Shown: positions 9,973 through 45,324 of the stretch, in pieces
Position numbering within the stretch: position 1 is the stretch's first letter
Layout of the letters: each line of letters begins with the position of its first letter
From: Dehalococcoidia bacterium
Lineage (GTDB): Bacteria > Chloroflexota > Dehalococcoidia > Dehalococcoidales > UBA1222
Length of the DNA: 46,941 nucleotides
Direction of reading: 5' to 3'
NCBI GenBank assembly: GCA_009779255.1
Contig: WREQ01000006.1
Coordinates: 1-46,941 of the forward strand
Translations under genes and position numbers: made by a program
Notes under the pieces: model-generated
What the model saw: only the letters and a program-made list of their open reading frames with translations
Told to the model about the DNA's origin: nothing
The model's database searches: none

Positions 9973-10120
9973 GGTACAGGCATTATATATCAAAACGGGT
10001 ATTCCTGTGTGTGTGCGCTTTTGGTAAATGGACTGAACTCATGACTCAAAACTGATTACTCACGACCCGTTTCCTCAAAGTCATTGCAGGTCAAACCCGC
10101 AATCCAGTGCGGCTATAAAT

Positions 10121-10360
10121 TCATGCTGGAGCCTTTAGCCTTGAACTTGATTCAGGGGCAGCGAAGCATCCGGTGGGGTGGTGGACGGTTACCCCCTCCG
10201 CCACCAGATCCTTCGGTCGTTACACTCCCTCCAGGATGGACTTGGTCATAAATCCATGCTGGAGGAATGAGCCTGCGAGTGACGAAGCATCCGGAGGAGG
10301 TGGAAGGTTACTCCCCGCCACCAAATCCTTCATCACGCCGAGGCGGGACTCCAGGATGGA
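10121..10360 (-). repeat. Two tandem copies of a ~110-120 bp palindromic repeat (10121-10240, 10253-10360)
   Basis: Same family as the array at 44726-45210, in opposite orientation (CCATGCTGGAGG ... CCTCCAGGATGGA arms). Confidence 0.8.
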
Positions 10361-10382
10361 CTTCGCGGTATAGCATGAGGGC

Positions 10383-10571
10383 ACCCTGCTGGATGACATT
10401 GATGAGTTCAACTGTAAACTCACTGACTGGCTTATCTTCTACAACATCGTTCGTCCTCACCATGCGGTACGCATCAACTGCAGGCAGGGACATTCCCTCA
10501 CGGATTGTCTCAACATACCAGGATTATCTGCTGCTAAGTCCAATATTGTGCTGGACTCATCCCGGTGTTTG
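10383..10571 (+). pseudogene. Degraded C-terminal fragment of an IS481-like (rve integrase core) transposase
   Basis: + frame TLLDDIDEFNCKLTDWLIFYNIVRPHHAVRIN...LSAAKSNIVLDSS; 'WLIFYNtvRPHhA' is typical of DDE transposase C-termini. Approximate end. Confidence 0.7.
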
Positions 10572-10597
10572 ACATGCTGTATCGTTTGTGATATATT
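10569..10597 (+). promoter_or_regulatory. Predicted sigma70 promoter driving the modBC leader
   Basis: TTGACA - 17 nt - TATATT. Confidence 0.6.
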
Positions 10598-10636
10598 GGT
10601 ACTTGTCAGGCACAAGCAGCCTTACTGGCAAGAGAT

Positions 10637-10757
10637 GGCAAGTCCTGCCGGGGGAAACTAGGGTGACGGGTTCTGAGCCAGTCTCGTCTTAAATGGATAA
10701 CCTCCCCCTCCCGTGCGCGGAGCCCTAGGTGTAATCGGGCAAGCGGCAGGACTTGCC
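10637..10757 (+). ncRNA. Candidate structured leader RNA (riboswitch-like) upstream of modBC
   Basis: 14-bp perfect closing stem GGCAAGTCCTGCCG/CGGCAGGACTTGCC enclosing CTAGGG/CCCTAG and two inner hairpins (GACGGG/CTCGTC, CTCC/GGAG). Confidence 0.5.
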
Positions 10758-10869
10758 AACTTCTCTCTGATGATGTATACATAGCATAGCGAACCGCTGC
10801 TAACGGTGGTTTTGTTGTGTTTATGGGTGACTGTAAACGGGAATTGTTGGAATAATAAACCACATCGCT

Positions 10870-11556
10870 ATGATGGACACCTATCTTTCACCGATATGGA
10901 TTTCAGTACGCACCGTGTTGACCGCCACGGCGATAACCTTTTTCCTGGGCATCGGCGCGGCGCATTGGCTGGGGCGCTACACTGGCCGCTTCAGAAGTAT
11001 TATGGATGGCATTTTCATTCTGCCGATGGTGCTACCGCCGACGGTGGTGGGATTCATTCTGCTGGTGATATTCGGCCGCAACGGACCCATCGGCAAAATA
11101 CTGATGGAAATCGGTGTCAACATCATTTTCTCGTGGTGGGCCACTGTCATCGCGGCAGTGGTGATGGCTTTTCCCCTGATGTATATGACCACCCGCGGCG
11201 CCTTCGAGCAGGTGGAGCCTAACATCAAGGACGCCGCCCGCACCCTGGGCGCCTCGGAATGGCGTGTCTTCTGGACGGTGACCATGCCATTGGCCTGGCC
11301 GGGAGTAGCGGCTGCCACCGTGCTGGCGCTGGCGCGCACGCTGGGTGAATTCGGGGCTACGCTGATGCTGGCGGGCAATATACCCGGTCGCACCGCTACA
11401 ATACCAGTCGCCATTTATTTCAGTATTCAGGCCAACGACTATCAAAGTGCTGCTGTGATGGCCGGCATCGTGATGATATTTTCTGTTGTGGCGCTGGCGG
11501 CTGTCAGCTACTGGCAGCGCCGTGCCTCCCGTTCCAGAAGAGTTATCATCAGCTGA
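10870..11556 (+). CDS. modB: Molybdate (or tungstate) ABC transporter permease ModB
   Basis: ILPMVLPPTVVGFILLVIFGRNGPIG; EAA-like loop DAARTLGASEWRVFWTVTMPLAWPG; LARTLGEFGATLMLAGNIPGRTATIPVAIY. Confidence 0.92.
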   Translation: MMDTYLSPIWISVRTVLTATAITFFLGIGAAHWLGRYTGRFRSIMDGIFILPMVLPPTVVGFILLVIFGRNGPIGKILMEIGVNIIFSWWATVIAAVVMAFPLMYMTTRGAFEQVEPNIKDAARTLGASEWRVFWTVTMPLAWPGVAAATVLALARTLGEFGATLMLAGNIPGRTATIPVAIYFSIQANDYQSAAVMAGIVMIFSVVALAAVSYWQRRASRSRRVIIS

Positions 11557-11567
11557 AACGGACAAAT

Positions 11568-12647
11568 ATGCTCAAAGCCAGAATCAAACGCGCGCTACCG
11601 GGATTTACGCTTGATATCGACCTGTCGCTGGATAGGGAGCTGATGACCATTCTCGGGCAATCTGGCTCCGGCAAGACCATGACGCTGGCCTGTATCGCTG
11701 GTCTGGCGCGCCCGGACGAAGGGCGCATCGAGCTGGGCGGCAAGGTGCTTTTTGACTCTGAGGCCGGCATTAATCTTCCCCCGCAGAAAAGACGGGTGGG
11801 ATTCGTCTTCCAGGACTACGCGCTGTTTCCCCACATGACGGTCGCCGACAATGTGGCTTATTCGATTCATGGCCTGCCTTCCGCCGAGGTGAAAGAGAAG
11901 GTGTCGCGGCTGCTTGGCCTGATGAATGTCAGCCCGCTTGCCGACCGCTATCCCCGGCAGCTTTCCGGTGGCCAGCAGCAGCGTGTGGCGATTGCCCGTG
12001 CGCTGGCGCCGGATCCGGACATTCTGCTGCTGGATGAGCCTTTTTCAGCGCTGGACACGCAGCTCAGGGAGCGGCTGGAAATGGAACTGTTGGAACTGCA
12101 GCGGGAGTATCGTTGCAGCATGCTTATGGTGACGCATGATCTGGCGGAAGGCTACAAGCTGGCTTCGCGCGTTGCCGTCTATCATGCAGGGCGCATCGAG
12201 CAGTGTGACCTGCGGGAACGTGTCTTTTTCGCGCCGCTGAATCGTACTGTGGCCCGTCTTACCGGAGTGCGTAACATCATGGTCGGGGCAGTGACGCGTT
12301 TCGAGCCTGACCATGTCTGGATTCATGTCCGGGCGTGGGACAGTGAAATCAAGTGCGTCCTGCCGCCGGATATGCGGCTTGAGGTTGGGCAGCAGGCAGC
12401 TGTCGGCATTCGCCCCGAGTATGTCGAGCTTACTGATGGTTGCGGTGAGAATGTTTTTTCCGCCCGGTCTTTGCAAGTGGTGCGGGGCATATCGGCCGTC
12501 AGCTATCGCTTTCAGCTAGATTGCGACCGGGAGGCGGCGCATCTTGTCAGCGCCTCGATCCCGGCCCCCGGCGCATTTTGTGCCAAGACTGGTGAGTCCT
12601 GCAGGGTACACCTGCCGGCAGCCCATCTCATTGTTATCCCCGAATAG
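11568..12647 (+). CDS. modC: Molybdate ABC transporter ATPase ModC
   Basis: GQSGSGKTMTL, LSGGQQQRVAIARALA, LLLDEPFSALD; 'PPQKRRVGFVFQDYALFPHMTV'; adjacent to modB. Confidence 0.92.
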   Translation: MLKARIKRALPGFTLDIDLSLDRELMTILGQSGSGKTMTLACIAGLARPDEGRIELGGKVLFDSEAGINLPPQKRRVGFVFQDYALFPHMTVADNVAYSIHGLPSAEVKEKVSRLLGLMNVSPLADRYPRQLSGGQQQRVAIARALAPDPDILLLDEPFSALDTQLRERLEMELLELQREYRCSMLMVTHDLAEGYKLASRVAVYHAGRIEQCDLRERVFFAPLNRTVARLTGVRNIMVGAVTRFEPDHVWIHVRAWDSEIKCVLPPDMRLEVGQQAAVGIRPEYVELTDGCGENVFSARSLQVVRGISAVSYRFQLDCDREAAHLVSASIPAPGAFCAKTGESCRVHLPAAHLIVIPE

Positions 12648-12699: not shown

Positions 12700-13527
12700 A
12701 TGGGCGTCAGAAATCTCAAGGTACTTATCCGCGGTGGGGGTGAATTGGCCAGCGCCGTCGCCTGCCGGCTGGCTGAAAGCCATTTCAAGGTCATTATGAC
12801 CGACGTGTCGGCTCCCCAAGCGGTGCGGCGGCATGTTTCTTTCTGCGAGGCTGTTTACGATGGCTACAAGACCGTCGAGGGCCGGACCGCCCGACTGGTA
12901 TCCTCTGCCACCCAGTCCCGGGCTGCCTGGAAAGCGGAGGAGATGGCCATTATCGTGGATCCGGACAACACTATTCTTGGCGACATAAAGCCGGATGTTG
13001 TGGTCGATGCCATCATCGCCAAGAAGAATCTGGGAACGCGTATTACTGATGCTGGACTGGTCATCGGTTTGGGAATTGGCTTCGAGGCTGGCAGGGACGT
13101 GCATGTGGTGATTGAGACCAACCGCGGTCATAATCTGGGGCGCGTGCTGCGCAGCGGTATCGCCGAGCCGGACACCGGCAACCCTGGTGACATCTGCGGC
13201 TATACCTTCGAGCGCGTGATGCGGGCGCCATGTGGCGGCATCATCAGGACAGTCAAACAAATCGGCGACATGGTCAAGGCTGGCGACATAGTTGCTTATG
13301 TTGATGGTGAATCGATTAAAACTACCATCCCCGGCGTAATTCGCGGCCTGATCAGGGACGGCACGCCGGTAACCAAAGGTCTCAAGTCGGGTGACGTAGA
13401 CCCGCGTGGCAGGGTTGAGTATATTGATACCATTTCCGACAAGGGACGCACCATATCCGGCGGCGTGCTGGAGGCCATACTGGCGCATTTCAACGGCAGG
13501 AGTTTGCCATCGATATCAACGATCTGA
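12700..13527 (+). CDS. yqeB: Selenium-dependent molybdenum hydroxylase maturation protein YqeB (EF2563 family)
   Basis: VLIRGGGELASAVACRLAESHFKVIMTDVSAPQAVRRHVSFCEAVYDG...VVIETNRGHNLGRV; context with yqeC/xdhC/mocA. Confidence 0.87.
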   Translation: MGVRNLKVLIRGGGELASAVACRLAESHFKVIMTDVSAPQAVRRHVSFCEAVYDGYKTVEGRTARLVSSATQSRAAWKAEEMAIIVDPDNTILGDIKPDVVVDAIIAKKNLGTRITDAGLVIGLGIGFEAGRDVHVVIETNRGHNLGRVLRSGIAEPDTGNPGDICGYTFERVMRAPCGGIIRTVKQIGDMVKAGDIVAYVDGESIKTTIPGVIRGLIRDGTPVTKGLKSGDVDPRGRVEYIDTISDKGRTISGGVLEAILAHFNGRSLPSISTI

Positions 13528-13541
13528 TTGATGTCAACGAA

Positions 13542-14909
13542 TTGTGGCGCGATGTATATCCATACACCGCGGCGCAGATAATCGGGTCTTTCGGGCGCGC
13601 TTCAGGCAGGGTGCTGGAGCTCGGCTCATTTTCCGGCGGCATTTCCTTCGAACTGGCTGGGCGTTATTCGGAGATGCAGCTTGTTATCGCCGATTCCAAT
13701 GCCGCATATCTCGCCTGGCTCGAACAGCAGATTGACAGCCGTGGCCTGCCTTCGCGCATCAAAATAGTTTCGAGCGCTTTGGACGCGCTGCCATTTGCCG
13801 ACGGCAGTTTTGACCTTATTATCCTGCGCGGAGCTTTTTTCTTTATTATGGATGCGCCGTCCATCCTGTCCGAAATCCACCGCGTGCTGGCTTATGGCGG
13901 ACTGGCATTCGTGGGCGGCGGTTATGGTAGGGGTATCCCGCAGGCGGATATTGATGCCATTGCTGATGAATCCCGTCTTCTCAACGACCGCCTTGGGCGC
14001 AGGCGCGTGGCGGTCACCGATTTGAAAGCCCTCGTCGCTACGCGGAATTTGAGCGATGTGGTGCATATTACCGAGGAAGGCGGGGTGTGGCTGGAGATGC
14101 GCAAACCCGCGCCGGTTGCGGAGCATCACGCTGGCGGTCTGGCGGAGGCTCTGGGAGTTGTGGTCGGGGATGTCATATCAGTTGTCGGGGGCGGTGGCAA
14201 AACCAGCCTCATGTTTACCCTGGCTGAGGAACTGGTTCGGGCGGGCAAAAAGGTGATTACCACTACCACCACGCGCATTATGCCGCCGGAGGCGCACCAG
14301 TCGCCATCGTTGGCCGTCGATGAAGACGAAAACCGGCTGATAGCAAAGATCGGGAGCGAACTGGCGCGTTACCCCCATGTAACCGCTGGGCGCTGTGTGG
14401 AGGCAGTCAAGCTCAAAGGGCTGCATTCGGAAACGGTTGACCGGCTGGCCGGGTTGGCGTTGGCGGATTACATAATCAACGAGGCTGACGGAGCGGCACG
14501 GATGCCTGTCAAGGCGCCCAATGCCACCGAGCCGGTGGTTCCTCAAAGCACCACTCTAGTGGTGGCTGTGGTAGGGCTGGATGGCTTGTGCAGGCTGCTA
14601 GGTAGGGATACGGCCTTCCGCGTCGAGTTTATCACCAGTCTCACAGGGTTGCTGGAGGGTGAGGAAATTACCCCGCAGGTCATCACTACCCTGATGACGG
14701 ACAAACATGGTATCATACAAAATACGCCTCCGGGGGCACGCATCGTGCCGTTCCTTAACAAGGCTGATCTGGCGGCGGAGAACACTGTGGCTGCTCTGGC
14801 CGGCGGGATTCTGGCTCGCTGTCACCCGCAAATTGGGCGGGTGGTGTCCGGGGCGGTACTATCGCAAAATAAGACGCTCAGGGTTTTCCTTCCCCTGGCG
14901 CGGGAGTAG
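13542..14909 (+). CDS. Fusion: class I SAM methyltransferase domain (N-terminal ~190 aa) + YqeC selenium cofactor biosynthesis domain
   Basis: VLELGSFSGGISFELAGR...LDALPFADGSFDLIILRG (MTase motifs), then VISVVGGGGKTSLMFTLAEELVRAGKKVITTTTTRIMPPE (YqeC P-loop) and ADYIINEADGAARMPVKAPNATEPVVP. Start codon uncertain (TTG 13542 or upstream alternative). Confidence 0.85.
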   Translation: MWRDVYPYTAAQIIGSFGRASGRVLELGSFSGGISFELAGRYSEMQLVIADSNAAYLAWLEQQIDSRGLPSRIKIVSSALDALPFADGSFDLIILRGAFFFIMDAPSILSEIHRVLAYGGLAFVGGGYGRGIPQADIDAIADESRLLNDRLGRRRVAVTDLKALVATRNLSDVVHITEEGGVWLEMRKPAPVAEHHAGGLAEALGVVVGDVISVVGGGGKTSLMFTLAEELVRAGKKVITTTTTRIMPPEAHQSPSLAVDEDENRLIAKIGSELARYPHVTAGRCVEAVKLKGLHSETVDRLAGLALADYIINEADGAARMPVKAPNATEPVVPQSTTLVVAVVGLDGLCRLLGRDTAFRVEFITSLTGLLEGEEITPQVITTLMTDKHGIIQNTPPGARIVPFLNKADLAAENTVAALAGGILARCHPQIGRVVSGAVLSQNKTLRVFLPLARE

Positions 14910-14911
14910 CT

Positions 14912-15730
14912 ATGCAGAATGATATTTACGCTGAGCTGGTGCGTCTCACTGCCGCTGGAGAGGAAGCGGCGTTAGTGACGGTGATAGCGGTTTCTGGTTC
15001 GACGCCGCGCGAGGAAGGCGCCAAGATGCTGGTGCGCGCCGATGGCTCCATTATGGGGACGATAGGTGGCGGGGCAGTGGAAAACGCTGCCATAAAGGAA
15101 GCACTGGAGGTGTTGAAGCGCGGCGTGGCTAAAAAGTTTGAGTACAAGCTGAACCCTTCCGGTGATCTTGGTATGATCTGCGGCGGGGATACCGAGATTT
15201 TCATCGAGCCGGTCAAATCCGCCCCGCCCCTGTATATCTTCGGCGGCGGGCATATAGCGGTGCCGCTGGCGCGGATGTCTGTCATGTGCGGTTTCAGCGT
15301 CACCGTGATTGACGAGCGTCCGGGGTTTGCCTCGGCGGGGCGCTTTCCCGACGCCGCTACTGTTGCGCTGGAAATTCCGGATGCCTACCGGCAGATGGAA
15401 ATCGGTAGCGGCGCTTATATCGTCATCGTTACCCATGGGCACAACGGGGACGAAGCCGCGCTAGAGGGCGCGCTGAGGACTCCGGCCAGATATATCGGCA
15501 TGATTGGCTCCAAGTCCAAGAACGCTGCTGTTTACGCTCGGCTGGAGGCCAAAGGCTTCTCGCGAGAGCAGCTGGCGCATGTGCATAGCCCCATTGGGTT
15601 GAACATCAAAGCGCAGACGCCGGAGGAGATTGCCGTCAGCATACTGGCCGAGATGATTGCGGTGCGCCGCGCGGCGGGCACGGCGGCGGCCTCCCATATA
15701 TGCGAAAGCGCGCCGTCCGTTGGCAACTAA
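14912..15730 (+). CDS. xdhC: XdhC/CoxI family Mo-hydroxylase maturation protein
   Basis: ALVTVIAVSGSTPREEGAKMLVRADGSIMGTIGGGAVE; FGGGHIAVPLARM; RYIGMIGSKSK. Confidence 0.92.
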   Translation: MQNDIYAELVRLTAAGEEAALVTVIAVSGSTPREEGAKMLVRADGSIMGTIGGGAVENAAIKEALEVLKRGVAKKFEYKLNPSGDLGMICGGDTEIFIEPVKSAPPLYIFGGGHIAVPLARMSVMCGFSVTVIDERPGFASAGRFPDAATVALEIPDAYRQMEIGSGAYIVIVTHGHNGDEAALEGALRTPARYIGMIGSKSKNAAVYARLEAKGFSREQLAHVHSPIGLNIKAQTPEEIAVSILAEMIAVRRAAGTAAASHICESAPSVGN

Positions 15731-33629: not shown

Positions 33630-33845
33630 TTATTTTATTACTGCTGCGGCGCAAAAGCAACCAGATGTATGTGTCCAAAACATATTGGACTTAAGGGGAT
33701 CGTATTCTGGCATATTGAAGTAGCCTATGAGGGGCGGCACCTGTCTGCCATTTATGCGCACCGCATGGTGAGGACGAACGGTGTTGTAGAAGATAAGCCA
33801 ATCTGTAAGTTTGCGGTTGAACTCATCGAAGTCATCCAGCAGGGT
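33630..33845 (-). pseudogene. C-terminal fragment of an IS481-like transposase
   Basis: Minus frame TLLDDFDEFNRKLTDWLIFYNTVRPHHAVRINGRQVPPLIGYFNMPEYDPLKSNMFWTHTSGCF; homologous to the remnant at 10383-10571. Confidence 0.75.
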
Positions 33846-34017
33846 GTCCGCATGCCATACGGCGAAGTCCTAAAGGCCTTCTTCCGGTAAAAGAACCTTC
33901 ATCCAGAAGTCGCAGACAGCCTGATTGGACAGATACTATGGGCTGGTAGTTGAAACATGCTTCATAACGCTGGAAGCATAACGCCTCAAGTTAATCAGCG
34001 TATAGGTCTGTTTCATC

Positions 34018-44593: not shown

Positions 44594-44725
44594 CAGGACC
44601 TCCATATCGGCATGGAATGTGCCGTGAAATGCGACCATCGTATTATATCCTGCGGATATCTCTATGGCAATATTGTGGCAGTGATGAGTTGCGAGTTGCG
44701 AATATCGAGTACGGTCCCGTACAAG

Positions 44726-45210
44726 TCCATCCTGGAGGGAGCGCAGCGACCGAAGGATCTGGTGGCGGGGAGTAACCTTCCACCACCCCACCGGATGCTT
44801 CGTCACTCGCAGGCTCATTCCTCCAGCATGGATTTATGTACAAGTCCATCCTAGAGGGAGTGCAACGACCGAAGGATCTGGTGGCGGAGGTGCCAGTTAC
44901 TACTCCCCGCCTCCTCCAGATGCTTCGTCACTCGCAAGCTCGTTCCTCCAGCATGGATTTACGACTAAGTCCATCCTAGAGGGAGTGCAACGACCGAAGG
45001 ATCTGGCGGCGGGGAGTCGTAACAATCCACCGCCCCATCGGATGCTTCGTCACTCGCAAGCTCGTTCCTCCAGCATGGATTTATGATCAAGTCCATCCTG
45101 GAGGGAGCATAGCGACCGAAGGATCTGGCGGCGGGGAGTAACCATCCACAACCCCACCAGATGCTTCGCTGCCTCTGAATCAAGTTCGGGGCTAAAGGTT
45201 TCAGCATGGA
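44726..45210 (+). repeat. Tandem array of four ~107-119 bp palindromic units (period ~120-124 bp)
   Basis: Units at 44726-44832, 44846-44957, 44970-45079, 45092-45210; each starts TCCATCCT(G/A)GAGGGAG... and ends ...CAGCATGGA, with internal inverted symmetry. Confidence 0.9.
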
Positions 45211-45324
45211 CTTACGACTGTCCGTGATTGCGGGGCAAGCCCGCAATGACACATGGGGATAATGCCATTCCGTCCCGCTTAGTCGGATGACGGAAGCTCT
45301 TGTGCGCAGGTGGTTGGCGCGAAA

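Follow-up and report, generated by a model that had tools for sequence, protein, structure and literature searches.

An order-restricted class of structured leader RNA in Dehalococcoidia, most likely an orphan riboswitch, found upstream of molybdate-transport and other operons

The Moco/Tuco riboswitch (RF01055) adopts a P1-P5 fold with a GNRA tetraloop and receptor (Regulski et al. 2008, PMC2408646). Another described RNA, the rdhA motif WRC-34-1, is presented in the accessible part of its source as a weak riboswitch candidate with 18 representatives, mostly from Dehalococcoides, located immediately upstream of rdhA (Narunsky et al. 2024, PMC11109978). The RNA element described here resembles the double-pseudoknot riboswitches in its compact junction, two pseudoknots and nearly invariant core but, unlike them, has no match to any Rfam family. 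The Dehalococcoidia are hard to culture and include organohalide-respiring bacteria used in bioremediation. With the element, the few regulatory RNAs recognized in these bacteria gain a structured class with good support, and a putative layer of RNA control is placed before reductive-dehalogenase and molybdoenzyme operons.

The element lies in contig 6 of a metagenome-assembled genome (1.14 Mb, 77% complete). This whole stretch of 46,941 nucleotides is referred to as the window, and its features are collected in the table. The original prediction had placed a near-consensus promoter, a leader of ~265 nt and a perfect 14-bp stem ahead of modB, and all of these were recovered, with a transcription start predicted from the promoter at ~10604. 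The 900-nt region contains 4 promoter-like sites as compared with 0.8 in shuffles. The identical promoter at a modA-leader copy (L211) stands 77 nt upstream of the element, and strong promoters at comparable distances were found within the window's family in the window itself and at L211, L210, L037 and L056. Over the copies as a whole, promoters with at least 10 of 12 matches stand upstream of 7.9%, against 2.1% in shuffles. The hairpin resembling an intrinsic terminator behind the element had gone unmentioned in the prediction. Judged by their predicted products, the genes behind the leader serve molybdate uptake and selenium/molybdenum-hydroxylase maturation.

Table. Features of the leader and of the genes that follow it, in window coordinates.
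Feature	Position	Strand	Evidence
Sigma-70-type promoter TTGACA-17-TATATT, TG-extended (TG ahead of the -10)	10569..10597	+	11/12 matches; same promoter at modA-leader copy L211
Whole conserved RNA element	10634..10761	+	covariance model R1, 126.8 bits; the window sequence is among the 30 used to build R1
P1 5' strand, partner 10744-10757	10637..10650	+	14/14 pairs compensatory, 91% of cells paired
PK1 5' strand GGGG, partner 10705-10708; nearly invariant AAAC next	10651..10654	+	98.6% of cells paired, 3/4 pairs compensatory
P2 5' strand CTAGGG, partner 10723-10728	10658..10663	+	98.3% paired, 5/6 pairs compensatory
P3 hairpin 10665-10670/10683-10688, loop variable	10665..10688	+	86.5% paired, 6/6 pairs compensatory
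PK1 3' strand CCCC	10705..10708	+	covariation
PK2 5' strand CCCG inside nearly invariant UCCCGU	10710..10713	+	99.1% paired, 3/4 pairs compensatory; column conservation
P2 3' strand CCCTAG	10723..10728	+	covariation
Nearly invariant GUAAUCGGG; CGGG at 10736-10739 is the PK2 3' strand	10731..10739	+	conservation and covariation
P1 3' strand	10744..10757	+	covariation
Terminator-like hairpin, 9 pairs, T-rich tail TGTTGTGTTT; candidate expression platform	10791..10812	+	
modB, molybdate ABC permease	10870..11556	+	TIGR02141, 249 bits
modC-like molybdate/tungstate ABC ATPase	11568..12647	+	TIGR02142, 222 bits, under model cut-off
yqeB, selenium-dependent molybdenum hydroxylase maturation	12703..13527	+	TIGR03309
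Methyltransferase-YqeC fusion	13542..14909	+	TIGR03172
XdhC-family molybdoenzyme maturation factor	14912..15730	+	NF045664/TIGR02964, under models' cut-offs

The RNA is built from three helices (P1, P2 and P3) and two pseudoknots (PK1 and PK2). The 14-bp stem, which becomes P1, lies within an 18-nt inverted repeat that is 94% complementary, and the minimum free energy of positions 10630-10765 is -60.9 kcal/mol as compared with -47.4 +/- 4.1 kcal/mol for shuffles (z -3.35; matched by 1 of 200). In an alignment of 30 sequences, compensatory changes were present in 25 of 34 pairs (116 cells versus 31 expected). When 112 sequences (111 distinct) were aligned with the model, 31 of the 34 pairs were compensatory and 93% of cells paired. 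Compensatory cells numbered 602 versus 155 +/- 15 in shuffles, the covariation score was 0.492 versus 0.205 +/- 0.005, and 0 of 500 shuffles reached any of the covariation measures; with slid partners as controls, pairing collapsed to 34-59% of cells. The fit of this alignment used P1-P3 of the model; PK1 and PK2 lie outside it, still pair, and both covary (for example GGGA/UCCC, AGGG/UCCU and UCCG/CGGA). The core of the homologues runs, in order, through GGGGAAACcAGGGUG, a variable hairpin, CUUAA, CCCCUCCCGUG, the P2 3' strand and GUAAUCGGG, and its nearly invariant pieces are GGGGAAAC, CUUAA, CUCCCGU and GUAAUCGGG. The inner pairings proposed originally stand in part: CTAGGG/CCCTAG and GACGGG/CTCGTC covary and correspond to P2 and P3, whereas conservation does not extend to the CTCC/GGAG hairpin. 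Many homologues lack GGAG, and the C-rich strand instead pairs within PK1 as its 3' side and within PK2 as its 5' side. The element is a conserved, covarying, aptamer-like structure.

Searches with the 4227 Rfam families, for the whole window at gathering thresholds and for positions 10500-10900 and 13 homologous loci at E<=10, gave no match to the element, either for RF01055 or for any other family, and no description fitting it was found in the openly searchable literature. We take the element to be a new orphan class of cis-regulatory RNA without a match in Rfam 15. Of the original interpretation, a structured cis-regulatory leader that stands in front of mod genes of relatives and matches no Rfam family is supported, plausibly as a new riboswitch-like class. 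The rdhA motif WRC-34-1 comes from the same bacterial group and is likewise linked to reductive dehalogenases. Unlike the motif, so far as the accessible part of its description extends, the present element has ~150 copies, two of them per Dehalococcoides-like genome and none beside a listed reductive dehalogenase; on that partial description, identity of the two RNAs is disfavoured by genomic location.

In a DNA search of 100 relatives, 44 of 101 genomes matched, and the strong multi-copy matches span window positions 10633-10762. Of 139 genomes from the window's order, covariance model R1 recognized 57 as carriers, with ~150 copies in all, often several per genome and up to 16, and it found no carrier outside this order in a 400-genome sample of the phylum. 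When ~85,000 species genomes were scanned with a degenerate pattern, 37 stretches were returned, nearly all of them in records titled Dehalococcoidia or Dehalococcoidales. The exceptions bear the titles Chloroflexota (one record, two stretches) and Deltaproteobacteria (one record), the latter probably being a mislabelled bin of the window's order; all of the records are consistent with Dehalococcoidia. The window's genome holds a second, weaker copy (C35:234-358). The genus labels used here (Dehalococcoides-like, Dehalogenimonas-like) were inferred, partly from counts of reductive dehalogenases. A blastn search of phages and plasmids gave no match to the element. One copy stands on an IMG/VR viral contig (L151, 5352-5483, minus strand) beside an ORF of 128 aa.

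For 146 unique copies we scored the orientation of the nearest downstream gene that encodes at least 150 aa; it was sense in 111 of 130 cases and antisense in 19 of 130 (p ~5e-17, the null being that a randomly oriented element is sense in half of the cases), the counts being approximate since the gene caller missed short ORFs, for instance one of 20-30 aa behind one Dehalococcoides copy. An antisense gene upstream combined with a sense gene downstream was observed 34 times, versus 14 for the reverse arrangement, and the distance from element to gene has a median of ~118 nt and is usually 30-300 nt. The sense bias, the gene arrangement and the promoters upstream together indicate that the element is in most cases a 5' leader. 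Counter-evidence to this role comes from three Dehalococcoides-like genomes, in which one copy, with differing flanks, is followed by a terminator within ~5 nt and looks free-standing. The other Dehalococcoides-like copy is followed, ~17 nt downstream, by the start of a short conserved ORF; at L208, L035 and L054, from three species, it has ~26 codons and reads MSxLGLWLIL(I/V)A(L/I)I(L/I)SI(G/S)N...

No common expression platform and no shared terminator or antiterminator was visible when 143 copies were checked for terminator-like hairpins, such a hairpin being close downstream in only 3 of 143 (0.4 in shuffles). The mod leaders of the window, L023 and L211 each have, behind the element, a hairpin whose 5' arm could base-pair with AGCGG(C) in the 3' strand of P1. 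A simple strand-exchange switch is energetically unlikely in the window, where the 14-bp P1, with a pair probability of 0.94, looks too stable, and we keep it as a lead. A very strong Shine-Dalgarno sequence (AAGGAGGTGATG-like) was seen soon after P1 in leaders of marine and sediment families (L154, L157, L160-L163, L171, L009, L137), with an apparent tiny ORF at that site, distant from the gene start.

The operons behind the element differ between families. Those of the window's family (f1) and of f16 contain modA and modB (the three mod leaders are the ones of the window, L211 and L023), Tat-exported [2Fe-2S] subunits with the large subunits of molybdopterin hydroxylases behind them, a Tat 4Fe-4S protein, and a DUF364-FecCD-ABC transporter. 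In the Dehalogenimonas-like family f8, the 46 proteins scanned include 10 class II ribonucleotide reductases (RNR), 11 radical SAM proteins, 7 B12-binding proteins and 6 reductive dehalogenases, and also CbiZ. Several class II RNR paralogues per Dehalogenimonas-like genome are element-led, often together with DUF2795 proteins and reductive dehalogenases (L212, L214, L216, L217, L221, L222, L224, L225, L059, L060). In f15, f28 and f38 the element is followed mainly by family-5 ABC binding proteins (29 of 68) and permeases, and further by three AFOR, MttB and B12-binding proteins; at L164 a molybdopterin oxidoreductase-like ORF was recognized by eye behind the binding protein. Mo/W-transport, Moco or molybdoenzyme genes are thus found downstream in f1/f16 but not across the class. 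The sensing of Mo/W or Moco suggested originally agrees with the operons of these two families and is not supported class-wide, since reductive-dehalogenase, RNR and B12-radical-SAM operons or family-5 ABC transporters follow elsewhere and RF01055 is a separate RNA in the order.

A strongly diverged Moco/Tuco riboswitch sensing the Mo or W cofactor would account for modA, modB, the Mo hydroxylases and the DUF364-FecCD transporter in f1/f16. Like RF01055, the element is a leader of ~130 nt before Mo/W-transport and molybdoenzyme genes, sometimes in tandem, and AGGGUG, a hairpin and a (C)CUCCCGUG-like sequence are common to both RNAs. In the window's genome (G000), and in G001, G003 and G007-G009, no RF01055 was detected, a provisional result given strict filters and an incomplete genome. 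We nevertheless consider this origin improbable. The element agrees with RF01055 neither in covariance model nor in fold, consisting as it does of P1, P2 and P3 with two pseudoknots, a variable P3 loop, and no conserved GNRA tetraloop or receptor that we could see. The chance of a common 8-mer between two such cores is estimated at several percent, and homology by way of the CUCCCGUG octamer is not significant by itself. Furthermore, of 140 genomes from the order, 96 have RF01055 hits above the cut-off. Behind it lie, where seen (names by eye), genes for tungstate-type binding proteins, FecBCD-like transporters and formate dehydrogenase, moaC-like genes and a Tat-protein/AFOR operon. G005 and G024 each carry both RNAs, in front of different genes. 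The element, unlike RF01055, also precedes reductive-dehalogenase and Opp-type operons.

Since very different operons share one core and a common platform is not visible, the main rival is a leader that binds a protein or modifies RNA polymerase before many unrelated operons, for example by processive antitermination, of which EAR and put are known elements. Such a leader, to which we assign a minor but appreciable likelihood, would explain one core before unrelated, often multi-gene operons as well as the lack of a common platform, and is favoured by the response-regulator domains in 16 of 45 scanned upstream genes of f1/f16/f8 and by the copy on the viral contig. However, a dense invariant junction with two covarying pseudoknots around it is a typical trait of ligand aptamers, and upstream genes are varied in the other families. 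It is very unlikely that the copies are free-standing small RNA genes that often lie near genes and act in trans: the terminator directly behind one copy in three Dehalococcoides-like genomes would fit, but most copies have no terminator and are ahead of a sense gene, and the other Dehalococcoides copy is followed by its conserved ORF. The original prediction had also allowed for a mobile palindrome (MITE/REP), to be recognized by its occurrence at unrelated loci. Several copies per genome do stand at unrelated genes and operons, G036 holds ~90% identical copies with different flanks, and transposase-like genes are near some copies. Yet near-identical copies without a preferred orientation were not what we found: the mean identity within genomes is only 0.59-0.76, with compensatory changes, the sense bias is strong, the conserved core is stable, and orthologous sites are retained in related species (the Dehalococcoides pair and the mod leaders). 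We find a mobile palindrome hardly credible.

The reading that we prefer, and regard as probable, is a new class of cis-regulatory leader RNA, restricted to one order and most likely an orphan riboswitch. The mechanism with the best support is a riboswitch-like attenuator. The double-pseudoknot junction would bind a small ligand, with the core as the sensor, and the ligand-bound state would stabilise the junction and P1. This stabilisation would alter transcription read-through or ribosome access, with the following 30-300 nt as the output; in the window, with the terminator-like hairpin as the platform, binding would lower modBC expression. Because one and the same nearly invariant core stands before all operon types, one signal probably serves the whole class. 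A cue common to Mo/W- and corrinoid-enzyme operons, be it a cofactor or metabolic, fits best. The Mo/W cofactor itself is one candidate, possible as the ligand and not supported across the class. The downstream genes are too varied for a ligand to be named, and for the large SBP_bac_5/Opp-type transporter group a connection with Mo or corrinoids is not apparent. We tentatively propose, while holding it short of probable, that the element is a new riboswitch class, confined to this order of Dehalococcoidia, which responds to a single signal and places the operons of the order's major metal-cofactor enzymes under joint control. Under its control would be Mo hydroxylases together with molybdate uptake in some families and, in Dehalogenimonas-like bacteria, reductive dehalogenases along with their class II RNR and B12-radical-SAM partners; elsewhere it would act on transporters. 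In the window's family the role of the element may be similar to that of the Moco riboswitch. What the original prediction observed is real and extends beyond what was seen then, and ligand discovery becomes a concrete problem, testable with heterologous reporters.

Some loci have unusual layouts. At L156 (G144:C162), three tandem copies lie within ~520 nt, with one ABC binding-protein gene downstream; tandem copies are also known for riboswitches (PMC2408646). At L225 and L220, two copies are ~1.9 kb apart with an IstB-like ATPase on the opposite strand between them, and this layout is the same in two genomes. In the window, the YqeC protein carries a SAM-dependent methyltransferase domain fused to its N-terminus. 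A non-coding repeat family, with pieces 84-92% identical, occupies window positions 10115-10400, 44722-45214 and 33831-33870 and gives rise to spurious ORFs such as MSLRVTKHP...; it has copies shortly before the leader and around 45 kb. Between ~10400 and ~10560, immediately ahead of the promoter, a frame that by eye reads like the end of an IS transposase (...LTDWLIFYNIVRPHHA...) is apparently a relic.
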